A stretch of 46,561 nt of DNA from a bacterium (lineage in GTDB: Bacteria; Patescibacteriota; Saccharimonadia; Saccharimonadales; UBA4665). The notes under the pieces were generated by a model. It did not search any database. It worked only from the letters and a program-made list of their open reading frames with translations, and was not told the origin of the DNA. A program made the translations under genes and the position numbers. The stretch lies in NCBI GenBank assembly GCA_021799575.1, contig JAJZAD010000002.1, forward strand, positions 1 through 46,561, read 5' to 3'. Positions 2,224 through 45,135 of this stretch are shown piece after piece (position 1 is the stretch's first letter; the number at the start of each line of letters is the position of its first letter).

Positions 2224-2271
2224 GGATTTAGTGTACCACTTAGGCAAATGCTTAAGATATAATTGTCCCTA
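2224..2271. promoter_or_regulatory. divergent promoters of PIG-L and mshC genes
   Basis: Only 48 nt separate the two start codons. Minus strand: -10-like TACACT at 2230-2235, 6 nt before the PIG-L ATG. Plus strand: perfect TATAAT at 2258-2263, 8 nt before the mshC ATG. Both imply transcription starting at or next to the start codon. No good TTGACA is seen for either. Confidence 0.6.
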
Positions 2272-3438
2272 ATGCGTATTTATGACACTAGCCAAAACAA
2301 TTACTGCGATTTTAATCCGTCCCATATAGTCAAAATTTATGTTTGCGGCATAACTCCATATGACTCGGCGCACCTCGGCCATATTTTTACGTTTATGACC
2401 TATGACTTATTGCAACGCAGGCTTGAAGATTTGGGTTACGAGGTGCACATGGTAAGGAACATAACAGATGTAGACGACCCACTGTTCGCTAAAGCTAAAG
2501 AATTAAACACTGACTATATAAGCCTGGCTGAGGCTGAAATCGCTTCGTTTCAAGAAACTCTGAATAAACTTAATTTCCGGCCCGCATTCGCCGAACCAAA
2601 AGCCAGTGATTATATATTTAAAATTGCTGGGGCCATTAAAACGCTAATCGACAATCATTACACCTATTATATTGATCAGGATATATACTTTAATACTTCT
2701 AGGTATCCTAATTTTGGAAAGTTCTCCGGCTATAGTGATAAGTTACTGCATACGTTAATGGCGGAACGTGGCGGCAACCCCTACCTGAAATCTAAGCGTC
2801 AAGCTTTGGATTTTTTATTATGGAAGCATACCTCCGATCCGAAGGATAAAGCCCAATGGACTACCGTAATTGGTAACGGCAGGCCGGGATGGCATATAGA
2901 ATGCAGCGTTATGTCAGCCGACATTCTAGGGAATACGTTTGATATTCACGGGGGAGGAGCTGATTTAATTTTTCCGCACCATGAATCTGAGATAGTCCAA
3001 AACGTGGCTCTGCACGGCAGCCAGTTAGCTCGGCATTGGCTGCATGTAGCACCGTTGTTCATGGCCGGTGAAAAAATGAGTAAATCACTCGGTAACATGA
3101 TATTCGCTAAAGACTTGCTGAGAAAATATGAGCCGTCAACTATCCGTTTAGCCCTTATGTACTACCATCACCGCACTGGCGGAGAATGGCAGTCGGAACT
3201 ATTAATTGAAGCCGAGCGATTACTGCATAGCTTACATAAAGCCGGCAGTCAATGCGACGACATTGCAGCTACTAAGCTTTTGAGTGAAGTGAGAGTGGCT
3301 CTTGACGATGATATCAATACTGTAAAGGTCATAGAAGCCCTACGGGCTTTCACAAACCAAGCGCCCAAACATCAACATAACCAATCTTCTCTCAATCCAA
3401 TTGTGTCTAAAACTTTAGAGCTGTTGGCTTTGATCTAG
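2272..3438 (+). CDS. mshC: L-cysteine:GlcN-inositol ligase (MshC)
   Basis: A 388-residue class I aminoacyl-tRNA-synthetase-like ligase. MshC activates cysteine with ATP and joins it to glucosaminyl-inositol, the third step of mycothiol synthesis. Diagnostic points: CGITPYDSAHLGH near residue 25 (MshC has CGITPYDATHLGH, whereas CysRS has CGPTVY-x-x-xHIGN), RNITDVDDP, GRPGWHIECSVMSADILG, HGGGADLIFPHHE and the KMSKS loop. Zinc ligands are visible as Cys in YVCG and IECS and His in FPHHE. The protein is short and lacks the long anticodon-binding tail of CysRS; its end (RTGGEWQSELL, LDDDINTVKVIEALRAF) matches MshC layout. The start is ATG 2272, 8 nt after TATAAT. A shorter CysRS paralogue is the alternative, but the HLGH/GITPYD signature argues against it. 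Confidence 0.85.
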   Translation: MRIYDTSQNNYCDFNPSHIVKIYVCGITPYDSAHLGHIFTFMTYDLLQRRLEDLGYEVHMVRNITDVDDPLFAKAKELNTDYISLAEAEIASFQETLNKLNFRPAFAEPKASDYIFKIAGAIKTLIDNHYTYYIDQDIYFNTSRYPNFGKFSGYSDKLLHTLMAERGGNPYLKSKRQALDFLLWKHTSDPKDKAQWTTVIGNGRPGWHIECSVMSADILGNTFDIHGGGADLIFPHHESEIVQNVALHGSQLARHWLHVAPLFMAGEKMSKSLGNMIFAKDLLRKYEPSTIRLALMYYHHRTGGEWQSELLIEAERLLHSLHKAGSQCDDIAATKLLSEVRVALDDDINTVKVIEALRAFTNQAPKHQHNQSSLNPIVSKTLELLALI

Positions 3439-6877: not shown

Positions 6878-8239
6878 TTAAGATTGAACAGGATTCTGAA
6901 CAACACCCACAAACAGAACTTCTTTAGTTGAGCTATCCTGTATTGTTAGCAAAAATGGTTTATTAACTTCCATATAGAAACCATTTGGAACTTCAGATGA
7001 GTCAGTCGTTACACCTACGCTTGTTGCAGCAGCAGCCACAGTACCTTGTTCGTCTACATCAATATATGTCTTATGCTCAACATCAGATATGTGTACATTC
7101 CTGGCTATCCCATCAAAGTTAGCTGCTCCATTGGGGTTAAAAGCAACACCCATACCTAAGGCTTGCAGGGTATCGTTAAGATTCTGGCTGTAAGTAAGTG
7201 TAAACTTCGGAAGCAATATAGTGCCTTGTTGCTTGGTATATTTACTGTCAATGGTCGCAAGTTGGTTGTAGCTTAGATTCTGTAAAAATGTGGTCATGTC
7301 GGTCGGTAAGTAGACGTTCATGCTTATTCGCTGATTCTTACCATAGGGTAGCTGTATAGCCTGAACTGAGTTATCTGAATAGTAGTTATAGGTTCCTGAT
7401 TGTGACATCAATGGGGTTTGTATTTGCGAACTACGACCAGTTGTAAACGGAGAGTTTTGGGTTTGACTAGGGTCAAATTTAGTATGCCAAGCTCCATTAA
7501 AGTACACGGCGTTAATAAGATACATTATCTCTGAAGATGGTATATTGTTGACTATTGAGGTGATTTTACCGTCAGTCGCACCACTCACCCAATTATTAAT
7601 CGTGGTTGGAGCTGAGGGACTATTGAAGTTAAGCGTCGTAGCCTTAGCCTGATAATCGTTTTGTGTAGTATTCAAAAATGATTTGTTAACTGATACCCCT
7701 TGCTTTAGCCAGACACTATTAGCAATTGATAAAGTTACTTTTGTATCGGGCTTTTTCAGACTTGAAATAAGTGCTGCACTAGAATTGTTAATTGTGTTAA
7801 GGCTCAACCCTTGATAGTTCAATACATTTCGCATAGCTGTTTGAGTAGAACCATCAGCGCCGTTATAAACCATTGAGAGTGCCATAGCGATACTAGCTGG
7901 CGAGATGAAAATATTGTTCTGTGGCGACTGTTTAACAAGCTGGTTAAAAACATTGATACCGAAATTGTTATTGGCACTCGTTACACTGGCACTCACATCT
8001 TTAATTGTAGCTGTAGGGGTACTCGTATTATTCCGAACCGTAAAGTAATAAACACCGCCTAAAATAATGGCTACTAACAGTAAACCCCCGATTATGCCAA
8101 GGATTTTCTTATGTGATTTTATAGGTGGGGCAGCAAGTGGAGATGAAGTTATAGCAGTTGGTTCGGAATTAGCAGATGAGATTAAAATATTCTTTGGATT
8201 GGATTCAGGCTCTGATCTTTGAGTTTCATTGGGTCGCAT
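6878..8239 (-). CDS. membrane-anchored serpin (inhibitory type)
   Basis: A 453-residue serpin. Residues 1-45 form a Pro/Ser-rich cytoplasmic tail, 46-68 a single membrane helix (IIGGLLLVAIILGGVYYF), and the rest an extracellular serpin domain with NIFISPASIAMALSMVYNGA, INAVYFNGAWHTKF and the hinge DEQGTVAAAATSVGV. The small-residue hinge (E-x-G-T-x-A-A-A-A-T) is the mark of inhibitory serpins, which trap serine or cysteine proteases by inserting this loop. The reactive loop continues as TTDSSEVPNG, so the scissile bond probably lies among Thr/Asp/Ser residues. ATG 8239 is chosen because TATAAT (8246-8251) lies 6 nt upstream; an in-frame TTG at 8275 lies before the promoter. Confidence 0.92.
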   Translation of the reverse strand: MRPNETQRSEPESNPKNILISSANSEPTAITSSPLAAPPIKSHKKILGIIGGLLLVAIILGGVYYFTVRNNTSTPTATIKDVSASVTSANNNFGINVFNQLVKQSPQNNIFISPASIAMALSMVYNGADGSTQTAMRNVLNYQGLSLNTINNSSAALISSLKKPDTKVTLSIANSVWLKQGVSVNKSFLNTTQNDYQAKATTLNFNSPSAPTTINNWVSGATDGKITSIVNNIPSSEIMYLINAVYFNGAWHTKFDPSQTQNSPFTTGRSSQIQTPLMSQSGTYNYYSDNSVQAIQLPYGKNQRISMNVYLPTDMTTFLQNLSYNQLATIDSKYTKQQGTILLPKFTLTYSQNLNDTLQALGMGVAFNPNGAANFDGIARNVHISDVEHKTYIDVDEQGTVAAAATSVGVTTDSSEVPNGFYMEVNKPFLLTIQDSSTKEVLFVGVVQNPVQS

Positions 8240-8245
8240 GGGGTT

Positions 8246-8275
8246 ATTATAAGTCAGCCTTACTTTTTTTACCAA
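8246..8275 (-). promoter_or_regulatory. serpin promoter
   Basis: Minus strand: TTGGTA at 8275-8270, 18-nt spacer, TATAAT at 8251-8246, then 6 nt to ATG. It defines the serpin start and implies a leaderless message. Confidence 0.6.
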
Positions 8276-20546: not shown

Positions 20547-21308
20547 ATGATTGTTAAACCTATAAAGACATCAACTATCCGTGCTGGAGCCATGCAGCTG
20601 GTCGAATTGCTAAATAGGTACCTTCCCGACGACATACCTGATCGCAGCGTTATAGCTATAACATCAAAAGTCATATCTTTATGCGAAAACCGGGTAGTGC
20701 CGGTAATCAGCATTGCAAAAGACCAACTAATAAAACAAGAGTCGGATTTATACATTCCTAAAAGCGGTAAGTACGGGTTTACCTTTACGGTTACCAACAA
20801 CACTCTTATCCCCTCGGCAGGAATAGACGAGTCTAACGGCGACGGTAATTACGTGCTGTGGCCATCGGATCCTCAAGCAACCGCTAATTCAGTCAGGGAT
20901 TACCTAACAACGCGTTTTCCAGGACGGCAGATAGGGGTTATTGTTACCGATAGTACTAGTACTCCGATGCGCCGTGGGACAAGCGGGATTTGTATCGCGC
21001 ATAGCGGGTTTAATGCTTTTAACGATTATGTAGGTAAGCCCGATTTATTTAACCGCATTTACCGGACCAGTAAAGCGAACGTTTCCGGCGGTTTAGCTGC
21101 AGCTGCCGTAGTCACTATGGGTGAAGGTACTGAATCTGCACCTCTTTGCCTGATAAGCGACATCGACTTTGTCCAGTTTCAGGACCGTCCGCCGAATTCC
21201 ACCGAGCTCGAGGAACTTAGAATTTCAATTGACGACGATGTCTTTGCGCCGTTTTTGTCTGCCGTGAACTGGAAGAGCGGCAAGCAACCTGAAAAGCCAA
21301 ACGACTGA
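20547..21308 (+). CDS. cofE: coenzyme F420-0:L-glutamate ligase (CofE-like)
   Basis: A 253-residue member of the F420 ligase family, which adds glutamate to F420-0 using GTP. Visible signatures: VIAITSKVISLCENR near residue 41-55, SAGIDESNG (about 90-98, metal and nucleotide site), LWPSDPQATAN, GVIVTDSTSTPMRRGTSG, and AAAAVVTMGEGTESAP near the end. There is no C-terminal nitroreductase domain, so it corresponds to archaeal CofE and to the N-terminal half of mycobacterial FbiB. In some CPR genomes similar genes are labelled folate gamma-glutamate ligase, so the substrate could differ. The presence of two LLM/F420-type oxidoreductases in the window favours F420. TATAAT at 20521-20526, ATG 21 nt later. 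Confidence 0.8.
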   Translation: MIVKPIKTSTIRAGAMQLVELLNRYLPDDIPDRSVIAITSKVISLCENRVVPVISIAKDQLIKQESDLYIPKSGKYGFTFTVTNNTLIPSAGIDESNGDGNYVLWPSDPQATANSVRDYLTTRFPGRQIGVIVTDSTSTPMRRGTSGICIAHSGFNAFNDYVGKPDLFNRIYRTSKANVSGGLAAAAVVTMGEGTESAPLCLISDIDFVQFQDRPPNSTELEELRISIDDDVFAPFLSAVNWKSGKQPEKPND

Positions 21309-21376
21309 TCAATTAGCAAAACGTACAAAAGCAGGATATCACTAACACCAAGAGCGCCTTGTGATAAGATTTAATA

Positions 21377-21676
21377 ATGCCTTATTCCCCAGAAAAAGCA
21401 GTCAGCAGAAATGAATTCCCTCAATTAACACCAGAAGAGCGGATAGAGCTTATTCGCTCTCGGCTTAAGGCTGATTCGATGCTGTTTGATATAGTAATTA
21501 CTACCTGGGGCGAACTCCATATCAGAAACTGCGCCCGAATTTCAGACCGGCAGGTTGATTGCAGTCAATTTTGCGCATCCGTACAACCGGTACTGCAGTT
21601 ATTAGCGGATCCGAATTTTTCCAGATCCTCCGATATTCGAGCCGTATATTCTAATAACGGATCGCTTGATTATTAA
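21377..21676 (+). CDS. small hypothetical protein
   Basis: A 99-residue soluble protein of unknown family. N-terminal half helical (TPEERIELIRSRLKADSM), second half strand-rich with two Cys (IRNCARISDRQVDCSQFC, three Cys). TAAGAT at 21365-21370 lies 6 nt before the ATG, so it likely has its own leaderless promoter. Its distance of 68 nt from cofE would also allow cotranscription. Confidence 0.5.
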   Translation: MPYSPEKAVSRNEFPQLTPEERIELIRSRLKADSMLFDIVITTWGELHIRNCARISDRQVDCSQFCASVQPVLQLLADPNFSRSSDIRAVYSNNGSLDY

Positions 21677-21787
21677 ACGTAATTTTTAGCTGTAGGTACG
21701 TTGTAAGAGCAAGTAGTCAAATAATATAGCGCTAGCTTTAGAGAATTACTCATAGACAAGCTTAGTTAAAGCTTTGCTTTGAATTAG

Positions 21788-22267
21788 TTACATGTCTTTA
21801 AGCTTTTCAAGTGCTTCTTTAAGCACCTGTTTAGCCTGATTGGTTTTTTGCTCTGATTCTTCGCCAGCAATGCGTCGTAGCGTAGCCATAAGTTCGATGA
21901 AAGTCGGCTTTAACTCAATGAAATGACGAGCCATACGGGCCCGTTCATCCCAACGATCACGTCGTTCGGCATCGACGTTATTGGCTCTTTTTTTACCGTC
22001 TGCAGTCAACTCGTAAATACGCTTACCATCCGCTTCTTTAGAGACTACCAATCCCTGTTCTTCGAGCATTTGTAAATTGGGGTAGACAGAACCGGCACTG
22101 GGCCGCCAAAGGCCGTGGTGTTTTTCTTCCAATTTAGTGATGATTTCGTAACCATGCATGGGTTTTTCCAGCAGGACCTGCAGTATAAGCGGACTGATGT
22201 CTCCTCTTCTAACCCTGTGACCATGCCATCCGTAACCGTACATTCCGTTCCAAGCATCTTTATACAT
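21788..22267 (-). CDS. PadR-family transcriptional regulator
   Basis: A 159-residue regulator. Winged helix at about 20-95 with PLILQVLLEKPMHGYEI, the recognition region RPSAGSVYPNLQMLEEQGL and the wing DGKRIYELTADGKK; then a C-terminal helical dimer region. PadR proteins usually repress nearby genes and their own, and are released by a ligand. The start has Shine-Dalgarno GGAGG and a strong promoter with two GATATATC sites (22289-22319), so autoregulation is likely. No cotranscribed efflux gene is seen, so its target is unknown. The N-terminal Tyr/Gly/His-rich patch (WNGMYGYGWHGHR) is like the N-extension of efflux-linked PadR members. Confidence 0.87.
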   Translation of the reverse strand: MYKDAWNGMYGYGWHGHRVRRGDISPLILQVLLEKPMHGYEIITKLEEKHHGLWRPSAGSVYPNLQMLEEQGLVVSKEADGKRIYELTADGKKRANNVDAERRDRWDERARMARHFIELKPTFIELMATLRRIAGEESEQKTNQAKQVLKEALEKLKDM

Positions 22268-22288
22268 ATCAATTCCTCCTATCTTAAT

Positions 22289-22328
22289 GATATATCTTTA
22301 TTATATATAACGATATATCGTATGTCAA
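22289..22328 (-). promoter_or_regulatory. consensus promoter with two GATATATC operators
   Basis: Read on the minus strand: TTGACA (22328-22323), exactly 17 nt, TATAAT (22305-22300). A perfect 12-bp palindrome ACGATATATCGT (22310-22321) fills the spacer and a second GATATATC lies just downstream at 22289-22296. The centres are 23 bp apart, about two helical turns, suiting a dimeric repressor covering the -10. Confidence 0.7.
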
Positions 22329-22439
22329 TAACAGGGGGCTTTTACGGTACGATTACCATTATTGTTAGCCGTCGTTTTTAATTCTGAATATCAACGGCTT
22401 AATTCGTAAAAAGTTTTAAATCTTTAGCGATTTAGGGCT

Positions 22440-23810
22440 CTAATTTTTGCTCGACGTAATAGAGTTATAGTAATTCTGAATTTGGCTGTAATTGCCTATC
22501 CCGGCTTTTGGAATAAGCGAGTCACCGGTTGTCGGAGAATAATAAGTTGTTAACAGTGCCGACTGACCCGGGCCGTAAGTTAAGCCGTACGACTTGATAT
22601 TGCTCACGTTAACTTTCTTGATTAGTTTAGCAAAGGCGATAGCATCAGCCAGACTTAAATTAGTTGTCACGTTATTGCCCAGGGCGTCAAACAAATGTGT
22701 TAACGCAACCGGGTTTGCGAGTACGCCGGCACTTAATGCCTTCTGTTCCAGTGCCGCCAACTCCTGTCGTTGGTGTTGTTCACGATTGATATCGCTCTGA
22801 GGGAAACCATAAGCGTATGGTGAATCACCTCTAGCAAGGGCTAGTGCCAAGGCCTGCAAACCGTCCAGTGTAACCGGACCGTTGGGCAACTTCAAAGGTC
22901 CGCCGTGGGCCTTATCGACATTCGGGTCATACAGTCCTCTGGGATCGGGACTTTGAATATCTACCGTAATGCCACCGACAGCATTAACCGCATCTTCAAA
23001 AGCTTTGTAGTCGATTAATGCATAGTATTGGATGGGAATATTAAAATCCTGTTCGATAATCTGCTGCAGTTGGCCCATTCCACCTTTAAAATATCCGGAT
23101 TGATTAAAATTACTGACTGTATTGGCATAATTTATCTTTTGATAACCCGCTCCGGGGATATGTACCAGTAAATCTCTCGGTATACTTAGCATGAAAGCGG
23201 TATTGTTCTTAGTGTCTACACTGACCACCATAATTGAGTCGGTGAGTGCACCTTCGTCACTCTCAGCCCCCTGATACCCGGCTAAAAGAACATTCACCCT
23301 ACCCTGAGCCTCACCGTTCAAGGTAGTAGTACTAAAGAGGGCCTGTACATCGCTAAAGATATTGCCGTGGAAAACTTTATTCAGATCGCCTACAATCCTT
23401 GTCCCGAACCAACCGCCAACTCCGAACAAAATTAACACAATCAACAGAAAAGACGAGATAACTTTATGCCTACCCACCCAGTGCTTTCTTTTACTCTTAG
23501 GAATAGGAACAGATCCGCCAATGCTGCGACCGTACGTACTGTTTGGCAGGGTAGTATTTAGCATCGGTTTAGGCTGGTTTACTAGGTTATTATCTAAGCT
23601 CATCGTACTAGATAAATTAGCAGAAGATGTTGATCTTTGGCTGAATTGTTTATATTGATTACTGCTTAAAGGAGGAATTCTGGTTCGACTGACGGTTACT
23701 CGTTGCTTAAATCTATCGGTATTGATTTTGTCTTGTTTGCTTTGTCCCGAATTAACACGGCCGCTACTAATGTCCTCGATAAATCTTGGTCTGAAGCTTC
23801 GATCGTCCAT
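22440..23810 (-). CDS. LytR-CpsA-Psr (LCP) family protein
   Basis: A 456-residue membrane-anchored phosphotransferase. A long cytoplasmic Ser/Arg/Pro-rich N-terminus (1-115), one helix (about 115-138, VISSFLLIVLILFGVGGWF), then the extracellular LCP domain with GRVNVLLAG, EGALTDSIMVVSVDTK, MLSIPRDLLVHIPGAG, QKINYANT and DINREQHQRQELAAL. The Arg and Asp in these motifs bind pyrophosphate and Mg2+. LCP enzymes attach glycopolymers from an undecaprenyl carrier to peptidoglycan or proteins. This fits a Gram-positive-like envelope, with PAP2 and alanine racemase in the same window. No tandem LytR_C domain is seen. Confidence 0.9.
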   Translation of the reverse strand: MDDRSFRPRFIEDISSGRVNSGQSKQDKINTDRFKQRVTVSRTRIPPLSSNQYKQFSQRSTSSANLSSTMSLDNNLVNQPKPMLNTTLPNSTYGRSIGGSVPIPKSKRKHWVGRHKVISSFLLIVLILFGVGGWFGTRIVGDLNKVFHGNIFSDVQALFSTTTLNGEAQGRVNVLLAGYQGAESDEGALTDSIMVVSVDTKNNTAFMLSIPRDLLVHIPGAGYQKINYANTVSNFNQSGYFKGGMGQLQQIIEQDFNIPIQYYALIDYKAFEDAVNAVGGITVDIQSPDPRGLYDPNVDKAHGGPLKLPNGPVTLDGLQALALALARGDSPYAYGFPQSDINREQHQRQELAALEQKALSAGVLANPVALTHLFDALGNNVTTNLSLADAIAFAKLIKKVNVSNIKSYGLTYGPGQSALLTTYYSPTTGDSLIPKAGIGNYSQIQNYYNSITSSKN

Positions 23811-24045
23811 TATTGCCTAAAAATATCAGCTTATATTTTAATCAATTAAGTTAACCTAAATATTGTTTCTTACAATTAGTTCCGTTAATAAACCTAGAAA
23901 CAATTGTAATGAAATGTTTTTTAATAAAACTTAATTCATTATACCAGTTACTAATCGGACTCCAAGTCCTGATTGTAGTACATTAATCCAAACGGATTGG
24001 CTATTTAAGCGGTTCGCTACTTTGTTAAAAATAGCTAAATAATCT
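23811..24045. other. spacer with inverted repeats between LCP and GH5 genes
   Basis: ATTGTTTCT at 23862-23870 and AGAAACAAT at 23896-23904 form a perfect 9-bp pair with a 25-nt gap upstream of the LCP start. Small hairpins (GGACT-CCA-AGTCC near 23958-23970, AATCC-AAAC-GGATT near 23985-23998) may end the GH5 transcript. None has a clear T-run. Confidence 0.35.
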
Positions 24046-25284
24046 TTATATCGGCGCAGGGTTGTCTGCAAAATATTGCTTGATAAGTGCGCCACTTCCT
24101 TGGCCGAAATGATCGCTGCAAGCGTAATGACCTAAAAACCTGTTTGGCGTTTGCAACTGGTTTGCACTACGAGTATCTTGCGGTGAGTTATTATTTGCAG
24201 GTACCAGACGCGGTAATCCCTTTAACAGCGATCCGGGCTGCAAAGACCAGGCAACCAGACCGATATGGTTAGCAAGCAAAAAGTTAAGATAAAGTGGTAC
24301 GGTTTTCGGCGCCGAAGAAAAACATTCCTCCCATGGTGACTCGTATTGAGCCCACTCTCCGTCCACCACCGGTTTAGTTTGCGCTAATACCGCTATTCTA
24401 GTCCAGGATGAAGGCAGGTTCAAATTAACATGATGGTAGGCGTACTCAAGATTGTTTCCAGAAAGAAACCTACTCTTTGACGGCAAAGCTCCCGCCCAAT
24501 TCGGTCCTTCAATCCATATCAGATTGTTGATTCCTCGATCGCGGATTTGATTAACCAACGTCTGCATGCCTATATACCTTACTCCGTTCAAAGTGCCTCC
24601 GTACTCCCATAATTTCCAGGTCAGGTTAGCGGCAGACTTTGTCTTACGACGGACATACCGATGCCGCAAAAATAGTTTGAGCGGTTGAAAATTACCGCTA
24701 AGTTGATCTAATACCGGATACGACTTACCGACTTTCACGCTCAAGCGCGGTTCGTTAAATAGATCAAAGACAATATACGGCTTATTTCCAAAAGTATTAC
24801 CGATAATGCGCCAAAATTTAAGTGTTTGCGCTGTAGGAGCGGGAAGATTGGTAGTGAATTCGGTCTGGTCGTTAATTACAACGACTTGATTAAAGCTCCG
24901 CGCGTAATCAACCAGGTTAATCAAAAGTTTAAGAAAATTAACGTTGTAGGTTTTTCCGGATGTTATGTGGGAAAATAAATTACTTTCGGCTATCTGTAAA
25001 CGAATGGTGTTGGTGTGCCAGTAATCTGCCGCGGCTTTAATTTGGGCTTTTAAATTCGGAATATTCTCAGAATAATCCGTGTCCTCTAGCCCGCCGTAAA
25101 TAGATATCCCCCTTGGAATATATGGCAGGCCATTAGCCAGTAAAACCCTGTTTCCAACGGCCCTCAACGACCCGCTTAAGGCAGGCTGGTCGGCTACCAG
25201 GGCATCAGCTCTAGCGAGCTGCCCTAAACTTAAGGCATTTAATAGAAAAACTATAATTAATACTAAAGTCAGTCTTTGGCACAT
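24046..25284 (-). CDS. secreted glycoside hydrolase family 5 enzyme
   Basis: A 412-residue protein with an N-terminal signal peptide (hydrophobic LVLIIVFLLNALSLGQLA, cleavage near ARADA) and a GH5-type TIM barrel. The acid/base Glu is in VFDLFNEPR (about residue 177) and the nucleophile Glu in VVDGEWAQYE (about 317). The intermediate strands NLIWIEGPNWAG and YAYHHVNL carry the conserved His and Trp. GH5 covers cellulases, mannanases and related beta-glycosidases; the polysaccharide cannot be named. It is secreted and probably degrades glycans of the surroundings or of a host cell. Confidence 0.85.
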   Translation of the reverse strand: MCQRLTLVLIIVFLLNALSLGQLARADALVADQPALSGSLRAVGNRVLLANGLPYIPRGISIYGGLEDTDYSENIPNLKAQIKAAADYWHTNTIRLQIAESNLFSHITSGKTYNVNFLKLLINLVDYARSFNQVVVINDQTEFTTNLPAPTAQTLKFWRIIGNTFGNKPYIVFDLFNEPRLSVKVGKSYPVLDQLSGNFQPLKLFLRHRYVRRKTKSAANLTWKLWEYGGTLNGVRYIGMQTLVNQIRDRGINNLIWIEGPNWAGALPSKSRFLSGNNLEYAYHHVNLNLPSSWTRIAVLAQTKPVVDGEWAQYESPWEECFSSAPKTVPLYLNFLLANHIGLVAWSLQPGSLLKGLPRLVPANNNSPQDTRSANQLQTPNRFLGHYACSDHFGQGSGALIKQYFADNPAPI

Positions 25285-25635
25285 AAATACTACTTCTAAA
25301 CTGTAGGATACTTTAACGTTTGTGCTTTAGCGTTACCTATGAAAGAAAAAAACCGGAAGAAAAAGTAATACTTACTTTTTCTAAACCTAATGTCTTTTAA
25401 GCCAGATTTTATTTTTCATTATACATCGGTTGTTTTTATAATTTTAGGCCCTTTTTTTTAAAAAAAATGGCTCCTTCTGAAGTGGTAGCAAACGATTATT
25501 AAATAGCTGTGATTTGGATTAATTTATATGGCGGTAATCCATAAAAAAGTTATATCTACGATAAAATTAACGAATACGCTTGTGTCATAGGCCTTGCATT
25601 ATTAAAGTATTAAATGGTATAAATAGCTTATTCCA
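25285..25635. other. intergenic region with hairpin and A/T runs
   Basis: AGAAAAAGTAA / TTACTTTTTCT at 25358-25368 and 25372-25382 form an 11-bp stem with a 3-nt loop. It lies 5' of the GH5 gene and upstream of the plus-strand coiled-coil gene. A long T/A run follows near 25451-25467. TATAAA about 12 nt before 25636 could serve as -10 for the next gene. No gene is seen. Confidence 0.4.
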
Positions 25636-26268
25636 ATGGGTGATTATGAAAGACCAGACATAATCGGTGAACAAGATCCTATAAAGTTGGGATTAGCAAT
25701 TAACATTTTAGTTCATTTATGTGATGAGACTCCGTGGCAAGGCAAAGAAGTAGTAATGCCTGCCGAAGAATACGGTCGCTTTCGATCGGCAGCTAAAACT
25801 TTGGTTGACGCATTTTTAGACGGCGCTCCATCATATGATAAAGTTACTTGTCAGGACTGCCCAAACGATCAATGTACCCTAGATCAATTAAAAGCTCAGC
25901 TTGTGGCGACTAAAGCATCTAGTGCAATCGAAATCCAAATTCTTTCCAGTAAACTGGAAGCTGCAAAAAGGCTGATCGGCGATCTGAATCGGGAACTAGA
26001 TCGTTCCGGGATAATCGAAGAAGCATATAACGGAGCATTCTCGATTTTAAAGCAAGCGACTCAAGAAACTATTGCAATATTAGACGAAAAAATTAACATA
26101 ATAGATGAAAACGATACTTTCGAGCCCATATCCGTAGAACCATTAACTGTCGCAACCGATTCGGTAAGTCGACGTTTCCCCATTCCACCCGAAGTCGAAG
26201 AACCGGAAGATAATAGTTATGGGGAGAATAATGTTTTTCCATTAAATTCACCGTTTTATAGATACTGA
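25636..26268 (+). CDS. hypothetical coiled-coil protein, sigma-operon partner
   Basis: A 210-residue soluble protein. It contains a Cys-rich motif (VTCQDCPNDQC near residues 74-84) that could bind zinc or respond to redox, then a coiled-coil stretch of about 60 residues (AIEIQILSSKLEAAKRLIGD), then an acidic, Pro-rich tail. No family is recognised. It ends 24 nt before the sigma factor gene and both are co-directional, so it may be an anti-sigma factor or sigma modulator (a Cys switch would fit) although no known anti-sigma fold is visible. Confidence 0.6.
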   Translation: MGDYERPDIIGEQDPIKLGLAINILVHLCDETPWQGKEVVMPAEEYGRFRSAAKTLVDAFLDGAPSYDKVTCQDCPNDQCTLDQLKAQLVATKASSAIEIQILSSKLEAAKRLIGDLNRELDRSGIIEEAYNGAFSILKQATQETIAILDEKINIIDENDTFEPISVEPLTVATDSVSRRFPIPPEVEEPEDNSYGENNVFPLNSPFYRY

Positions 26269-26292
26269 TAAAACCAGAATTGGGAGTACGCA

Positions 26293-26976
26293 ATGAACGG
26301 AGAGGTTATTACTTTTGTAAATCCAGAGATGGCACCGGATACGGATCCCCTAACAGAATCGGTAAGTAGATTCCAGAACTTATGCCGAAATAATCCTGAA
26401 GATAAAGACGTTATCAGTAGCGCTTTTGCAGATATAATTAATGAAACAAATCCTTTAATTTACAGGGTTCTAGTCTCTACCGGACTTCAAGAACACGATG
26501 TTAATGATCTGATGCAAGAAGTCAACATCAGGATGTTCAAAGCTTTTTCGCGCGGTTTATTCGAGGGTAGAAGCAAAGCTAATACTTATATTTATACGCT
26601 GGTACATAACGCAATGTATACTCATCAAGAAAAGGCTAGCCGCAGATCCAGAGTAGAAGAACTTATAGGAGAGAAAGCTATATTCGAGGAGGTTGCTGTG
26701 GATGCGGCGGATGTCGAAACCGCTGCAATCGATAATGTAGAAAACGGTGTTAAGAGTATTCTCGACGGGCTAGATATTGACGAAAAAGATAAACAGCTAC
26801 TTTTTCTCAATGCAGTTAAAGAGCTGTCGCCTAAAGAAATACTCGGGTTGCTGGCGGCAGGTTTTCTGGGCGGCTACGCCATTTCAAAAATCGCTCGTAA
26901 TCACGGAGCAATCAAGGTCGCTACCAAGCGGGCGAGAGACCGTGCCAGCGCAGCTTACAAGCATCCGCAAAATTAA
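26293..26976 (+). CDS. RNA polymerase sigma factor, ECF-like
   Basis: A 227-residue ECF-like sigma factor. Region 2 is clear: IYRVLVSTGLQEHDVNDLMQ followed by EVNIRMFKAF and TYIYTLVHNAMYTHQEKASRR (-10 recognition). A linker (EVAVDAADVETAA) leads to region 4-like helices (VKELSPKEILGLLAAG, then AISKIARNHGAIKVATKRAR) with a glycine-rich, unusual recognition helix. Shine-Dalgarno GGGAG lies 7 nt before ATG. The paired coiled-coil gene upstream probably regulates it. Region 4 departs from the usual pattern, so its promoters may be atypical. Confidence 0.75.
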   Translation: MNGEVITFVNPEMAPDTDPLTESVSRFQNLCRNNPEDKDVISSAFADIINETNPLIYRVLVSTGLQEHDVNDLMQEVNIRMFKAFSRGLFEGRSKANTYIYTLVHNAMYTHQEKASRRSRVEELIGEKAIFEEVAVDAADVETAAIDNVENGVKSILDGLDIDEKDKQLLFLNAVKELSPKEILGLLAAGFLGGYAISKIARNHGAIKVATKRARDRASAAYKHPQN

Positions 26977-26981
26977 ACCGG

Positions 26982-28139
26982 TTAAACAAGAACCCTCCTA
27001 ACGTCAGGACTGAGCGCCGTTAGTAAATTATAATTAAATAAACCGAACTTTGAGGCTAGTTGATCTATCGAGTTCGGGTCGTCGGGATTGTCGCTGTAAA
27101 TAACAACTGCGTCACCGATTTTAGTGCTCAGGTTTTCCAGACTGATAATCGTGTGATTCATACATACGCGTCCGATAATCGGCGTAAATTCAGTTTTAAC
27201 CTTTACTAAACCTGCATTACTAAGCTGCCGATTGACACCTTCGTAATAACCCAGTGGTAAAACTCCGATTTTCATTGGCCGATTGGCGGTAAAGGTATAG
27301 TTATAGCTGACCTTTTCTCCTTTACTCAAATTTATAATCTTAGTTATAGTGCTTACCAGTTTAAGTGCTGGAATCAGCGGTTCAAGCTCGGAGTGTAGTT
27401 TATGTTGCGGCCCGAATGGATTAATTCCGTAAAGGCCTATCCCTAATCTCATACAATTGGCATACCGGGATTTAGCCTTAAGGCTGCCTGCGGTTTGTGC
27501 CAAATGTATCAGCGCGGGTTGACAGCCGCACGCAATAACCTCTTCGACGCAAGCATCAAATACAGCTGTAGCTTCGTCTACGGTGCCCGGATCATCACCG
27601 TCGCTATCGGCTAAATGACTCATAATGCCTTCTAACTCAAGGTTAGGATAGCTTAATATCCGTCGGGTCAGTTGTCTAATTTCCCCGATCTTGGCACCGC
27701 GACGATTCATGCCGCTGTTGCACTCAAGATGAACTTTAACCCTCTTGCCGGTCCGACCCAAAGCATCAATGGTTACAAGCTCATCAACAACGAAAGCAAA
27801 ATTATCAAACTTGATTCTAGTATAGTTTTCGGGTGCTATCGCCCCCATTATTAGAACCGGTTTATCGCTGACGCGTCGGATTCGTAACGCTTCAAAGTAA
27901 CCGTCAACTGCAAAATACGGGAAAATCCGCTCATTAAGTGATTCGGCAACTAAACTAATGCCATGCCCGTAAGCGTTGGCCTTAAGTACAGGAATAATCT
28001 GCATACTTCCCGCACTGCTCAGCTTGAAGAAATCAAAATTGTTAAGCAGGGCCTGCTTAGAAACTTCGATTCGGTTATAAGTAATGAACTGATGCTCAAA
28101 TTTGGCTAAAAAATCATTAATATCCTGCCGTATACCCAT
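26982..28139 (-). CDS. alr: alanine racemase
   Basis: A 385-residue PLP enzyme that interconverts L- and D-alanine for peptidoglycan. The PLP lysine is in VLKANAYGHG (about residue 50) at the N-terminal TIM barrel. MSHLADSDGDD, GIGLYGINPFG and VSYNYTFTANRPM are the other barrel marks. The C-terminal beta-domain has IGRVCMNHTII, where most family members have GRVCMD; the Asp to Asn change is unusual but at the edge of the site. It is downstream of two LLM oxidoreductase genes (56 nt after the second) and likely in one operon. The final stop lies just 6 nt from the stop of the convergent sigma factor gene. Confidence 0.88.
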   Translation of the reverse strand: MGIRQDINDFLAKFEHQFITYNRIEVSKQALLNNFDFFKLSSAGSMQIIPVLKANAYGHGISLVAESLNERIFPYFAVDGYFEALRIRRVSDKPVLIMGAIAPENYTRIKFDNFAFVVDELVTIDALGRTGKRVKVHLECNSGMNRRGAKIGEIRQLTRRILSYPNLELEGIMSHLADSDGDDPGTVDEATAVFDACVEEVIACGCQPALIHLAQTAGSLKAKSRYANCMRLGIGLYGINPFGPQHKLHSELEPLIPALKLVSTITKIINLSKGEKVSYNYTFTANRPMKIGVLPLGYYEGVNRQLSNAGLVKVKTEFTPIIGRVCMNHTIISLENLSTKIGDAVVIYSDNPDDPNSIDQLASKFGLFNYNLLTALSPDVRRVLV

Positions 28140-28195
28140 GGTTTTTTTGCTAACGTCTCAATTCTAATGACATTAAAGTGATATATACCGGGTTA

Positions 28196-29074
28196 TTAAT
28201 TAAGTTCATGTATCTGTTGAACCGTAGAAGCAAATTTTTCAAATGAGCTTACTGACCCGTCTTTACTGGCCGCATAGATCACGTGTTCAATCCCTAATTC
28301 ATGGAGTTGAACAACCGTTTTAAGTGTTCCATCTTGATTCATCGCCGCTTCGGTAATGCCGACTCCGGCGAGACATGTCTTTTCGATCTGATTATAATCG
28401 CGTCCGATATCGCTGCAGTGTTTAGCCAGCACTTGTAATTTATGCTGCAGTTGTGCTTTGTCTTGGGCGAAAAGATTGCAGGCGTCTCCGTACTGAGCCA
28501 CAAAACGTAACGTTTTCTCTTCCCCGCTGCCTCCGATCAATATTGGCGGATGTGGTCTTGTTACAGACTGAGGGGATAAGTACGGCTCGGGCAATTTGTA
28601 GATTTCGCCATTAAACGGTTTTGAATCTCCCGACCACATCTGAAGCGCTAACTTCAATGTATCTTCCAGCCTCACGAAACGTCTGCTGTGAAGCGGATCA
28701 AGCAGGCCTAAGGCGATAGCTTCTTGATTATTCCAACCGGCACCGATACCGAAATACGCCCGTCCTCCTGATACCACGTCGAGCGTGGTAACAGCATTAA
28801 TCAGGACTGCCGGCTCTCGATAGATTACTCCCGTAACCATTGTTCCTAGGGTTACTTTCTGAGTTACACCGGCAAGATAACCCAGTGCCGTATAGGCTTC
28901 TAGCATCGGGTCGGTATAGGGACCTATACCCGGAAGCTGAAAAAAATGGTCCATAACCCATAGACTATCGAAGCCTGCGCTTTCAGCTGCTTGGGCAATT
29001 TGTTTTAAGTGCTGATGGATAGATGCGTCACCGCCTGGATAATCGAAACGGTTAATTTGTAAGCCTACCCTCAT
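28196..29074 (-). CDS. LLM-class F420-dependent oxidoreductase (Rv1855c-like)
   Basis: A 292-residue luciferase-like monooxygenase-fold enzyme that uses reduced or oxidised F420 (or a flavin in some relatives). Features: GLQINRFDYPGG, SLWVMDHFFQLPGIG near residue 39-53, AVTTLDVVSGGRAYFGIGAGW, and the cofactor phosphate strand PHPPILIGGSGEEKTLR. The pattern MDHFFQ...GIGPY...PMLEAY is that of the Rv1855c group of actinobacteria. The substrate is unknown. Shine-Dalgarno AAGGAGG lies 6 nt before ATG, and the gene follows the FGD-like gene after 14 nt, so the two are translated from one message. Confidence 0.82.
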   Translation of the reverse strand: MRVGLQINRFDYPGGDASIHQHLKQIAQAAESAGFDSLWVMDHFFQLPGIGPYTDPMLEAYTALGYLAGVTQKVTLGTMVTGVIYREPAVLINAVTTLDVVSGGRAYFGIGAGWNNQEAIALGLLDPLHSRRFVRLEDTLKLALQMWSGDSKPFNGEIYKLPEPYLSPQSVTRPHPPILIGGSGEEKTLRFVAQYGDACNLFAQDKAQLQHKLQVLAKHCSDIGRDYNQIEKTCLAGVGITEAAMNQDGTLKTVVQLHELGIEHVIYAASKDGSVSSFEKFASTVQQIHELN

Positions 29075-29088
29075 TAATGCCTCCTTGG

Positions 29089-30063
29089 TTATAATCGTTT
29101 GAGCCGCGGCAATAATTGTTCGCCTAAAATTTTAATCGTCGATATTTGGTTTAATGAGGTAGTTTGAATGCCGACGATATCTGCCTTCAGCTGACTAATA
29201 AGCGGCGCATAGATATTATAGTAATCATCCACGCTAGAAGCTATGGAATAACGTTCCAGGATTGCTGATTTTGGTAAAGCATCGGCTTCCGTCTGCAGTT
29301 GCTCCGGATCAATAGCCCGATCTCTGTCCGGAGCTCTGAGGCCTCTTTGAGGCGCAATTGCTTGCCAAGCTTCGGCTTCTGAAGTCGCGAAAATGGACCA
29401 GTGGGTTGCTACAACTTTAAAATCGGCTTTAGTGGTTAAGGTTCTAGCCGGCTTTAAAACATTTGTGAGTGCCTCTTGGAGATTTTTGACACTGATCAAT
29501 ACCCCGTCAAAAGCCTCTCCCGCCCAGGAAGCGCTTTTAGGCCCACCGGCGGCTAAGATAAGAGGTATCTTATGTATCGGCTCGCTATACAGTTTAGCCG
29601 ATTTGGTTTGATAGTAACGTCCGTCGTAGTCTAATTTTTCTCCGTTTAAAAGTCGACTGATAATCGATATCGCTTCTCGCATCCTGGCTTGGCGTTCGGC
29701 ATATGGCGGCAAAAGGTATCCTAGAGGACCTTCATTGATATTTTCACCGCTACCAACTCCTAGTTCAAACCGCCCGCCAGATAAGCGGTCAAGCGTAGCC
29801 GCTGCCTGGGCTATAACTGCGGGGTGAAAGCGGAATAGTGGAGATATTACCGCAGTCATTAATTTGATCCGTTTTGTGGTGACTGCCATTGCACCTAGAA
29901 TAGATAAGCTAAAACCTGCACGGCCCTTGTCAGCCACCCAAGGATGAAAATGCTCAGATAGCATTACACCGTCAAAACCGGCCTGTTCTGCCGCCAAGGC
30001 GTGCTCTATTAGCTCTTCAGGCTGAAACTGCTCGTCCGAGCAAAACCAATAAATAGCTGCCAT
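29089..30063 (-). CDS. FGD-like F420-dependent dehydrogenase (G6PDH family)
   Basis: A 324-residue TIM-barrel enzyme of the LLM class. It matches the F420-dependent glucose-6-phosphate dehydrogenase group: LSEHFHPW (residues 36-43, with the His and Trp that face F420), FHPAVIAQAAATLDRLSGGR, VGSGENINEG (about 104-113, with the catalytic-type Glu) and RYYQTKSAKLYSEP. Known FGD reduces F420 with glucose-6-phosphate. The sugar-phosphate residues of mycobacterial FGD1 are not clearly conserved here, so another alcohol substrate is possible. It is the first gene of a likely operon with an Rv1855c-type enzyme and alanine racemase. TAAATA at 30072-30077 lies 8 nt before ATG. Confidence 0.82.
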   Translation of the reverse strand: MAAIYWFCSDEQFQPEELIEHALAAEQAGFDGVMLSEHFHPWVADKGRAGFSLSILGAMAVTTKRIKLMTAVISPLFRFHPAVIAQAAATLDRLSGGRFELGVGSGENINEGPLGYLLPPYAERQARMREAISIISRLLNGEKLDYDGRYYQTKSAKLYSEPIHKIPLILAAGGPKSASWAGEAFDGVLISVKNLQEALTNVLKPARTLTTKADFKVVATHWSIFATSEAEAWQAIAPQRGLRAPDRDRAIDPEQLQTEADALPKSAILERYSIASSVDDYYNIYAPLISQLKADIVGIQTTSLNQISTIKILGEQLLPRLKRL

Positions 30064-30316: not shown

Positions 30317-30949
30317 TTAAAAACTGCCTCTATCCGTACTTAATACGTCCGGTCCGCTACTTCCTCTACCGCGCTTTAGTTCGTAAAAAGCATCATATGC
30401 ACTAATCCCGACTAGAGAATCCCATAGCTTAACCGACTGCTCCGGATCGGGTAGTCTACCTAGAACAGGACCGAAAAAAGCCGAGTTCGCGCCATAACTA
30501 TCTGTGAATATTATTGCGGGTACGCCTATATCATCACCAACCGCTTCTAGAGCCGACTGGCTGGATTCGATCAACTCCACGTCCAGGCCAACATCATCAG
30601 CGGCGGCTATTAACCCTGGATTAAGCTTATTTTTTTCAAGCACTTCCCGGATAAGTTCATTGTTGTAAGCGACTCCGTCAATAAAATGTCGTTTACCGAA
30701 GTGGGAATATAAGTCGATAATGTTAACTCCGGTTTTAGACGCTTTAAGTATAACTCTTTCTACTCGGTGCGAGGGCATATGTTGGTCGTCTTGAATAAGA
30801 TCATTACTCTCGAGCTCACCGTTTTGGTAAGCCAGGCTAAACATCCGCCACTCTATAGCGAGCTCTCTTTTTTCAGACACCGTTAATATGAATCGGCTGG
30901 CAATCCAGCACCACGGGCAACCCGGATCAAAGTAAAAAGCGATATTCAT
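30317..30949 (-). CDS. DsbA-fold mycothiol-dependent reductase (Rv2466c-like)
   Basis: A 210-residue thioredoxin-fold protein with a helical insert. Active site FDPGCPWCWI near residue 8-17 is the same CPWC as in Rv2466c of mycobacteria. EAVGDDIGVPAIIF holds the cis-Pro loop, AFFGPVLGRLP and KLWDSLVG follow the same order as in Rv2466c, and FYELKRGRG matches its tail. Rv2466c is a mycothiol-dependent oxidoreductase that can reduce nitro compounds. This protein has no signal peptide, so it is cytoplasmic. ATG 30949 is chosen because TATAAT (30959-30964) lies 9 nt upstream; the ATG at 30976 precedes it. FrnE-type DsbA proteins are the main alternative. Confidence 0.8.
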   Translation of the reverse strand: MNIAFYFDPGCPWCWIASRFILTVSEKRELAIEWRMFSLAYQNGELESNDLIQDDQHMPSHRVERVILKASKTGVNIIDLYSHFGKRHFIDGVAYNNELIREVLEKNKLNPGLIAAADDVGLDVELIESSQSALEAVGDDIGVPAIIFTDSYGANSAFFGPVLGRLPDPEQSVKLWDSLVGISAYDAFYELKRGRGSSGPDVLSTDRGSF

Positions 30950-31013
30950 TTGACTTAAATTATAGCAATGACTCAAAACGTGATCGACCGGTTAAATACC
31001 AAAACTCAAGGCG

Positions 31014-39966: not shown

Positions 39967-41724
39967 TTATTTGGACGCATGCCATTCCCGCCATATCAGT
40001 CGGTGGATAGGGACAAGACGCGGAATATCCCTTATACCGGGTATAAACGGCACTAGCAGCAAAAAGATAGTGGCGACACCGGTAAGATAAATCGCTATGA
40101 GATCCGCATTTGCAGAGGTGCTAAATCCGGGCACATGGTACCAGAGAGTATACAACCATAACCAGGGTTGTCCCGGATAGGATCCGGTTTCATTCATTAC
40201 CCCCCACTGGGTGCTATATAAATGTTCTTTTTTGGCGATAGAACTGAAGTAGTTGCCGTCTTCAATAAACAGTAACGGCTTCGTGTAGTCTGTTCCGTAA
40301 AATTGCTGCTGGGCTAACAAGCTGGCATCTAGTGCCCCGCTTCTAGCCATAGCCAACTCGCTGTCGACCAGTTCCGGAACCGGTCCGTCGTTTGCCTTCG
40401 GTATCACGGGTTGATGGTTTTTAAATTTTACTTTCGTTATAACCTTCAGATAGTTAGATGCCCAAGCTCTCTGTAGTGACAAATCCGCATTATTATACCG
40501 TCTTAAGGCTAAAGTAAGCTTTTTGTTTCCGGGAGACAGATTTTTTAAAGGCTTTAAAACGAACGTTTGAGCTGAGTTTATAGGCGTATGTACCCCTGCT
40601 AACAGTTGCCAGCTTACGCCTATCTTTTGAACGTATTGTGTGCCGTGATTGTATGGCGGACCATAATTGGCGGTCTCACTCGTACCGGCAAGCTCACTGG
40701 CTGCAGTAGCCATAAAATCCGCTGGTGCCAGTTTAGACCAGGTTTCAATTGTCAGACTCGGCGTATCGGGAGAAGACATAATCGTCGCCAGCGCAAACAC
40801 CACTATCAGCACGATAACGGTTGCAATTGTACCTTCTTTTAAAATGTCATATCTTTTGGTCGGTCCTCGCCACGCAGCAGCTTCGGCCGCTTTAAGCGCC
40901 CGCTTGGCAGCTCTCCCCTTAGCCTTTTGGATGGGGTGAGATACGCCTCTAATCCTAACTAGAATAATGTGCGCCCCGACCAGAGATAATAGTATTAAAG
41001 GCATCAATACTATATGCCAGGTAAGCATTTGACCGAAATTTGTAAGTTTAAAAAATGATCCGAGCCCGGTAGCGTTAACGGCATCCTTGCCATTGGTCGC
41101 AATCCATTGCGAGTCAAAGTTTTGTTGTGACAGGTATCCTGTAAAACACTCTACTATAGAGGCTAGGAAAGCCAGTACGCCGCTCATCCAAGTTAAAGCA
41201 CGCTTACCTCTCCAGGCAGCCATCCAGAACTTACCCCACAAATGAATAACCATGAAGGCCATAAACATTTCGACACCCCAAAGGTGCAGGCTATTGAAAA
41301 AATGCCCTACGCTGCTATCGTGCCACCAATTAACTCCGCCGATCGCTAGCACTATACCTGAAGCCACGACTACCCCTAAGGATGCCAAAGTAGCTACACC
41401 GAACACATATATCCACGATGCTACATAAGCCGGCTGGCGATCAGGTAATAATTTAAGCGGGGGTAATACTTTAAGTAAAGCGGTCCTGGCTCTAGCCGTC
41501 CACATCTGCTTAGTTTCCGGAGGTGGCAGCGGAATAGGTGTGTGCTCTTCCGGAGGTAATAATGTCTTACTTTTAGGAAACGGTAAGGTAACTGCCAGCC
41601 CGAAAATTACCAGCATCACCGCAATTAAGATTAGATTGGCCAATGAAACAGTAAATATCGACCAGTGGATATATTTCTGAGGCTGGTTTAAGTTAACCAG
41701 TGCGGCCGTTATGTTCAGTAACAT
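39967..41724 (-). CDS. diheme cytochrome b (QcrB/PetB-like) with periplasmic insert
   Basis: A 585-residue membrane protein. An N-terminal helix and a Pro-rich linker precede a cytochrome-b core. Helix B has SLHLWGVEMFMAFMVIHLWG with His-His spacing 14, and helix D has LTWHIVLMPLILLSLVGAHI with spacing 15: the two bis-His haem pairs of cytochrome b of the bc/b6f type. A large extracytoplasmic region (about 330-530) and final helices follow; the quinone-site PEWY is not seen. In actinobacteria the partner genes are Rieske and cytochrome c, and none is in the window. Role: electron transfer with quinones, inferred. Confidence 0.8.
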   Translation of the reverse strand: MLLNITAALVNLNQPQKYIHWSIFTVSLANLILIAVMLVIFGLAVTLPFPKSKTLLPPEEHTPIPLPPPETKQMWTARARTALLKVLPPLKLLPDRQPAYVASWIYVFGVATLASLGVVVASGIVLAIGGVNWWHDSSVGHFFNSLHLWGVEMFMAFMVIHLWGKFWMAAWRGKRALTWMSGVLAFLASIVECFTGYLSQQNFDSQWIATNGKDAVNATGLGSFFKLTNFGQMLTWHIVLMPLILLSLVGAHIILVRIRGVSHPIQKAKGRAAKRALKAAEAAAWRGPTKRYDILKEGTIATVIVLIVVFALATIMSSPDTPSLTIETWSKLAPADFMATAASELAGTSETANYGPPYNHGTQYVQKIGVSWQLLAGVHTPINSAQTFVLKPLKNLSPGNKKLTLALRRYNNADLSLQRAWASNYLKVITKVKFKNHQPVIPKANDGPVPELVDSELAMARSGALDASLLAQQQFYGTDYTKPLLFIEDGNYFSSIAKKEHLYSTQWGVMNETGSYPGQPWLWLYTLWYHVPGFSTSANADLIAIYLTGVATIFLLLVPFIPGIRDIPRLVPIHRLIWREWHASK

Positions 41725-43998: not shown

Positions 43999-45135
43999 TT
44001 ATTGGGTTGTACCCTGCCAACTGACCGTAAAACTGGCGCCGTCATTGCCTAGATTCGACGGGGTGGCTATTACTTGTCCGGAACTACTGACCATAGCTAC
44101 ACTGAACGAACCGGCGGTAGCTATAGTATCTGTGACACCGTTAATCACTACCGAACCGTTACTGAAAGGAATGGTTCCGAAATCATCCAGCGGATACAAT
44201 TGACCGGTATTGCTACTAGGATCTTCTTCTATCCACTCGGCGGAAGATAGGTTGGAGACATAAGAAACGTCCAGGTTAAACGTCTGGTTATTTGTTGTAT
44301 CTTCCAGCGTGATATCCCATTTACCAGAAGAAACTTGTTTCAATGAAGCCTGAATCGTATCACCCGGTTTGACCATCAGGTTCGGAATATTAACCGCGGC
44401 ATCAGGTAACATTTCGTAAAAAGCCCCCTCTGTTGCCTTTCCGTTAGCGCTGACCGTGTCATCCGTACCGACTTGTATTAAGTCGCTAGAAGTAATTCCG
44501 CCGATTCCGATCCAAGTAGCATCGGTAGAGGTCGTGCTGCCGTTGCCCGTCGGTGACGGTGTAACCCAGGTAGCGGAAATACCGCTGTAACTTAATCCTG
44601 ATTGATCAGCAAAATATCCTGCCCAGTTAGTTGAAGTATAGTTGCTGCTATTAGTAGTGGAAGAGCTTCCCGTAGACGAACCGCTACTGCTGCCGCTTGA
44701 TGTGCCGGTACTGTTAGTAGAAGTGTTGCTACCGGAGCTTGTACTGGTTGAACTGCTACTCGAAGATGACGGAGTCAACGTCGGTACACTGCTATCGGGA
44801 GATGGCGATACTGTTGCTGTAGTTGGCGGTACAGCGGCAGGTTTAGTAGCAACGGATACAGGTTTGGGGGATATAACAGGCGGCGATACGCTTGGGGGTT
44901 CAACGATGGTAATCGTAGGCTTAGGTATAGTTTTTGGCGTAGCAGGTCGAATCGGACTGATCATTTCTTGAGATTTGTTTGAACTGGAGGATGGTAAAAG
45001 CGTAAGCCGTATCAACGGTGGTGCAAATAAAGTAGTGATTAATAAGACAAAGGCTACTACACCGAATAACGGTATTAGACGCTGATGCGCTAACCGTACC
45101 AGTTGACCGACCAGCTTGCCTAAAAGTTTTAACAT
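43999..45135 (-). CDS. secreted/anchored G1 (eqolisin) peptidase
   Basis: A 378-residue protein. A hydrophobic segment at about 20-45 (LIPLFGVVAFVLLITTLFA) anchors it or is a signal. A Pro/Ser/Thr linker (PKPTITIVEPPSVSPP, then a long SSSTSTSSGS run) leads to the G1 domain: NWAGYFADQSG (strand 1), ATWVTPSP, WIGIGGITSSDLIQVGTD (catalytic Gln) and AEWIEEDPSS (catalytic Glu). These are the Gln/Glu dyad residues of eqolisins, acid-active endopeptidases first known from fungi. The extracellular location implies protein degradation outside, at acid pH. Confidence 0.88.
   Translation of the reverse strand: MLKLLGKLVGQLVRLAHQRLIPLFGVVAFVLLITTLFAPPLIRLTLLPSSSSNKSQEMISPIRPATPKTIPKPTITIVEPPSVSPPVISPKPVSVATKPAAVPPTTATVSPSPDSSVPTLTPSSSSSSSTSTSSGSNTSTNSTGTSSGSSSGSSTGSSSTTNSSNYTSTNWAGYFADQSGLSYSGISATWVTPSPTGNGSTTSTDATWIGIGGITSSDLIQVGTDDTVSANGKATEGAFYEMLPDAAVNIPNLMVKPGDTIQASLKQVSSGKWDITLEDTTNNQTFNLDVSYVSNLSSAEWIEEDPSSNTGQLYPLDDFGTIPFSNGSVVINGVTDTIATAGSFSVAMVSSSGQVIATPSNLGNDGASFTVSWQGTTQ

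Follow-up and report, generated by a model that had tools for sequence, protein, structure and literature searches.

We analysed a stretch of 46,561 nucleotides (hereafter the window: contig JAJZAD010000002.1 of assembly GCA_021799575.1, positions 1 to 46,561, forward strand) from a bacterium of the Saccharimonadales (Patescibacteriota). A preliminary description of this DNA had named a CofE-like ligase and two luciferase-like monooxygenase (LLM) class oxidoreductases and had taken them together as a sign of chemistry based on the deazaflavin cofactor F420. The three open reading frames (253, 292 and 324 amino acids in order of position) and both LLM types were confirmed, while the ligase turned out to be of another subfamily than CofE, both by profile scores (249 against 97 bits) and in a phylogenetic tree. 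The features concerned are as follows.

20547-21308, + strand: PF01996 gamma-glutamyl ligase of the TIGR04132 or FolC2-like branch (assigned from profiles, tree and distribution).
28196-29074, - strand: LLM2, second in the pair, LLM-class oxidoreductase of the Rv1855c type (TIGR03560; profile, plasmid matches and tree).
29075-29088, - strand: 14-bp gap between the LLM1 stop and the LLM2 start, with an AAGGAGG ribosome-binding site (read in the sequence).
29089-30063, - strand: LLM1, LLM-class oxidoreductase like F420-dependent glucose-6-phosphate dehydrogenase (FGD), TIGR03557-type, first gene of the pair (profile, relative in the Protein Data Bank, residues and tree).

The genome to which the window belongs amounts to 0.81 Mb in 16 contigs and is 91.9% complete. 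The bacterium is probably host-dependent. Most likely it is a Saccharibacterium: the ligase tree places a named Saccharibacterial sequence (L004) in the midst of sequences from the same genus, family and order as the window, and many families in our sample of the phylum have genomes near 1 Mb. Comparisons were made over 61 genomes, consisting of the window's own genome and 60 relatives, 18 of which are congeners.

LLM1 and LLM2 form a fixed pair, present in 11 of the 61 genomes, always with both genes and always in the same order. Among the ten pair-bearing relatives are nine of the 18 congeners; the tenth belongs to another genus in the family, and no further occurrence was found among the 60 relatives searched, which sample the family and the order. 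The two genes are probably co-transcribed, as suggested by the 14-bp gap with its ribosome-binding site and by the same order and tight spacing in the ten relatives. Flanking genes differ among the other pair-bearing genomes, without conserved neighbours, and viral contigs yielded a single partial relative of LLM1. In one congener (G298), the gene directly upstream of the pair (L096:10939-12699) encodes a homologue of a cytochrome b-type protein (PF13631, 52 bits, 585 amino acids) that the window itself carries at 39967-41724.

LLM1 scores 209 bits against TIGR03557, one bit under the cut-off of 210.4, and six of its ten counterparts pass this cut-off (best score 233 bits). Its best solved relative is FGD1 of Mycobacterium tuberculosis (TIGR03554/TIGR03557; 3b4y, E 6e-51), with about 35% identity. 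The SEHFHPW motif of LLM1, already pointed out in the preliminary description, aligns with Asp39-His40...Trp44 of FGD1, a glutamate replacing Asp39, and the alignment shows that His40, Trp44, Glu109 and Asn112 are kept in all 11 LLM1 proteins. The position of FGD1 Ser73 is likewise occupied in all 11 (by Ala, Gly or Met) and is followed by a valine (Val74). In FGD, Adf and Mer this is where a non-prolyl cis-peptide bulge lies behind the deazaflavin ring as its backstop (PMC5352752; the bulge is numbered Ser74-Val75 in one place of that paper, while our alignment gives Ser73-Val74), and LLM1 keeps this bulge. The residues Lys198, Lys259 and Arg283, which make up the phosphate site for glucose-6-phosphate in FGD1, correspond to Asn, Arg and Arg in the window and are variable in the relatives. 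Reference proteins of TIGR03885, a family of LLM enzymes dependent on flavin mononucleotide (FMN) and, like LLM1, near TIGR03557, show a one-residue deletion exactly at Ser73, the deazaflavin backstop, in four cases out of four. In the tree they form a separate clade that joins an F420-type enzyme of Thermomicrobium (100/99), whereas the LLM1 proteins have a clade of their own (100/100). This LLM1 clade takes in a Streptomyces protein (95/94), a placement that its long branch makes unsure.

LLM2 scores 272 bits against TIGR03560 (F420_Rv1855c), over the cut-off of 231.4, and is nested among actinobacterial TIGR03560 proteins in the tree. Its best 40 plasmid matches are all actinobacterial or haloarchaeal; actinobacteria and haloarchaea are groups that make F420. 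LLM2 differs from other members of the family in being Patescibacterial, in its fixed pairing with an FGD-like gene and in residing in a genome without cof genes. The identification of an FGD-like and an Rv1855c-like enzyme is thus borne out, and both carry F420-type features, without grouping with the FMN-dependent TIGR03885 proteins. Judged from these sequence features, F420 is the favoured cofactor, which they do not prove.

Profile searches of the window's own genome gave no match for CofH/G and none for CofC. The sole CofD homologue (PF01933) was rejected as a candidate, as it is YvcK (252 bits, cut-off 196). No CofH match over the cut-off was obtained in the 60 relatives; three weak partial matches were seen, none of them in a pair-bearing genome. 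The same search was positive over the cut-off in three control genomes, where the CofH profile also matched other radical SAM proteins, and 43 of the 61 genomes searched have a completeness of 90% or more with little contamination. The data thus support the presence of two F420-type oxidoreductases in a genome unable to make F420. The preliminary description had anticipated that the deazaflavin core genes or an import of the cofactor would be needed; given the missing CofC and CofG/H and the identity of the CofD homologue, the pair either needs imported F420 or uses FMN or another flavin, and F420, if used, comes from outside. Synthesis of F420 through undetected genes, or through genes in the unassembled 8% that a completeness of 91.9% leaves room for, is hardly credible in view of the absence of CofH over the cut-off in all 61 genomes, the positive controls and the missing CofC.

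The ligase is the only PF01996 protein of the genome (103 bits). It scores 249 bits against TIGR04132 ("putative folate metabolism gamma-glutamate ligase") and 96.8 bits against TIGR01916 (F420 CofE), the latter score lying under the cut-off of 180.65 bits. CofE proteins (TIGR01916; 2phn, 7uld) have the PF01996 domain in common with the ligase, which also shares the RRG and MGEG motifs with the CofE of A. fulgidus, but the ligase is only 25-32% identical to plasmid-borne CofE from F420 makers and lacks a CofE segment of about 18 residues. In the tree, which included no Chlamydia sequence, 26 rows from across the Patescibacteria, the ligase among them, form one clade (100/99), and the CofE proteins of F420 makers form another (98/94). 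A TIGR04132-type ligase was found in none of the ten other pair-bearing genomes; as only the window's genome among the 11 has it, the ligase does not belong to the LLM module. CofE as a member of an F420 package was therefore discarded on profile, tree, distribution and the lack of other cof genes, and with it the use of this gene as a sign of F420 in the preliminary description: the ligase groups with the folate-type branch.

The ligase is best read as having a FolC2-like role. FolC2 of Chlamydia (CT611; COG1478, TIGR04132-like) is likewise homologous to CofE, and its genome has neither folC nor other cof genes. It is assigned to the same COG as the ligase and complements a folC mutant of E. 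coli (PMC1971073). No folC match (TIGR01499) was found in the window's own genome at E 1e-40. Among 287 Patescibacterial genomes, 39 have a strong ligase match and 54 have folC; the two occur together in 2 genomes against an expectation of 7.3 (p = 0.015, without correction for relatedness), as if the ligase tended to replace folC. A neighbour similar to dihydrofolate reductase (DHFR) was seen at five of 32 other loci of the clade, its closest solved relative being the DHFR of T. maritima (6e-22); none adjoins the ligase in the window. Most of the 32 loci show 1.5 kb on each side, so that neighbour counts are lower bounds. The window ligase differs from FolC2 in falling under the TIGR04132 cut-off and in that no folate gene cluster was seen around it in the window. 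At two loci of the clade (L012 and L033), a queuosine-precursor transporter, a DHFR-like reductase and a TIGR04132-like ligase stand side by side and may make up a Patescibacterial operon for vitamin salvage.

Taken as a whole, our preferred explanation, to which we give a probability of about 0.5, is that the F420-type pair works on F420 from a host or neighbour, while the ligase is an unrelated folate-type enzyme. LLM1 and LLM2, a probably co-transcribed pair with actinobacterial kin, would have been retained in a single genus-level group within a Saccharibacteria-like lineage that depends on hosts and cannot make F420. In the most likely working mode, F420 or F420H2 would be supplied by neighbouring or host cells, LLM1 would reduce F420 with a sugar phosphate or a similar alcohol as donor, and LLM2 would spend F420H2 on a reduction. 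The ligase, 8 kb from the pair, would be an unrelated FolC2-like enzyme that probably glutamylates salvaged folate. The favoured, if unproven, source of F420 is the host; the bolder proposal of a host-dependent Patescibacterium whose two-enzyme F420 redox module operates with cofactor taken from other cells, in a form of cofactor piracy, is made tentatively, at somewhat less than even odds.

Several points weigh against this explanation. We know of no F420 transporter, and none was found here; and about 8% of the genome is missing from an assembly that is ~92% complete. Within the LLM1 clade Lys198 is lost and Arg283 only partly kept (Lys259 being replaced by Arg in the window), which makes FGD activity on glucose-6-phosphate doubtful for LLM1. 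The second-best profile score of LLM1 is that against TIGR03885 (195.6 bits, cut-off 398.7). FMN-dependent LLM enzymes possess a bulge too, so that its presence in LLM1 does not exclude FMN. As for the ligase, it lies under the TIGR04132 cut-off of 350 bits, which is reached in none of the 287 Patescibacterial genomes; because every match falls under this cut-off, it is filed only as TIGR04132-like. A queuosine precursor transporter (PF02592/TIGR00697) neighbours the ligase at eight of the 32 other Patescibacterial loci, and, together with the scores under the cut-off, this makes a non-folate substrate possible for the clade.

The rival that survives best holds that the pair came from an F420-using donor but has since changed over to FMN or another flavin, in the way that has been proposed for TIGR03885, with no F420 involved in the cell. 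We regard it as a serious but somewhat doubtful alternative. It would accord with the lack of F420 biosynthesis in the own genome and of CofH in the 60 relatives, with the 196 bits of LLM1 for the FMN family and with the fact that such a reversion has already been named for TIGR03885. However, LLM1 stands apart from TIGR03885 in the tree and does not share its one-residue deletion, and the 40 best plasmid matches of LLM2 point only to groups that make F420.

Two further rivals concern the ligase. That its substrate is a queuosine-related compound or another salvaged vitamin instead of folate is unlikely: the transporter neighbours described above, along with a tRNA-guanine transglycosylase neighbour at one ligase locus, speak for it, but the DHFR-fold neighbour at five loci, the name of the TIGR04132 profile with the precedent of CT611 and the tendency to replace folC all argue for folate. 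Far less probable still is a partial F420 pathway, in which the ligase would finish imported F420-0 for the LLM enzymes. It could appeal to the PF01996 domain of the ligase and to true CofE-type paralogues in congeners, but the own genome's only PF01996 protein is of the TIGR04132 type, a type missing from the ten other pair-bearing genomes, and the CofE-type paralogue itself is missing from eight of the 11 genomes with the pair. These CofE-type PF01996 proteins (L120-L123 and L127, about 141 bits against TIGR01916) occur in four congeners without CofH (G293, G295, G298 and G299), three of which carry the LLM pair (p = 0.58 within the genus), and are possibly linked to imported F420-0.

The preliminary description had further combined the F420 enzymes with mycothiol into an actinobacterial redox package. 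Three features of the window bear on this proposal.

1495-2247, - strand: PIG-L deacetylase, in divergent orientation to the MshC-like gene (PF02585, 111 bits).
2263-3438, + strand: MshC-like cysteine ligase, short (391 amino acids; TIGR03447 356 bits, cut-off 485, against 334 for cysS).
30317-30976, - strand: Rv2466c-like thioredoxin-fold protein with a CPWC motif, of the mycothiol-dependent nitroreductase family (PF22234, 121 bits, cut-off 27).

The PIG-L protein stays under the cut-offs of three specific families (BshB1 92 bits, cut-off 182.5; Mca 60; MshB 45), neither MshC nor MshB is present over the curated cut-off in the own genome, and a separate cysteinyl-tRNA synthetase (CysS) is encoded elsewhere in it (G000:C5). 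The divergent MshC-like/PIG-L pair (MshBC) is found in seven of the 61 genomes, and in two relatives (G290 and G295) it directly adjoins the LLM pair. The Rv2466c-like protein has 4wkw, 4nxi and 5xur as solved relatives. Its gene adjoins the LLM pair only in the own genome among those bearing the pair; it occurs in seven of the 11 pair-bearing genomes but in only one of the seven MshBC genomes. Over the 61 genomes, co-occurrence with the LLM pair gave p values of ~0.016 for MshBC, 0.003 for the Rv2466c-like gene and 0.016 for the CofE-type proteins, whereas none of these associations was significant within the genus (p = 1.0, 0.18 and 0.58, respectively), so that they can be explained by lineage effects and incomplete genomes. 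The link of mycothiol to the LLM pair is thus weak, the adjacency in two relatives being what remains of the proposed package. In another genome (G310; L095, 8915-13920), the MshC-like/PIG-L pair adjoins genes for 6-phosphogluconolactonase-like, Gnd-like and glucose-6-phosphate dehydrogenase proteins, a layout that suggests a thiol-NADPH cluster.

Elsewhere, the window encodes several proteins of a quite different nature. These include a full serpin (PF00079, 366 bits) with a membrane-type N-terminus at 6878-8275, in so tiny a genome, a family 5 glycosyl hydrolase (cellulase) at 24046-25284, whose start is signal-like and which is conserved in several relatives, and a protein of the Peptidase A4 family of glutamic peptidases (PF01828, 104 bits) with a Ser/Thr-rich linker at 43999-45135. 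Between 31014 and 35439 lies a series of proteins that look secreted and abound in NNTTGGNATSGNA-type repeats; the two of these proteins that were scanned had no Pfam match.

A literature search found no title or abstract on F420 or mycothiol in Saccharibacteria, Patescibacteria or the candidate phyla radiation; in one of the matching papers, the passages on F420 concern SAR324 and Crenarchaeota. The use of F420 is normally inferred together with its biosynthesis. If the preferred explanation is true, other cells are the source of a complex cofactor, and the import of F420 by epibionts from actinobacterial hosts becomes testable. If instead the pair has switched to FMN, it would represent an independent change of cofactor outside TIGR03885 and a warning against F420 calls made from LLM annotations. 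The result on the ligase is itself a warning against reading Patescibacterial PF01996 genes as F420 ligases.

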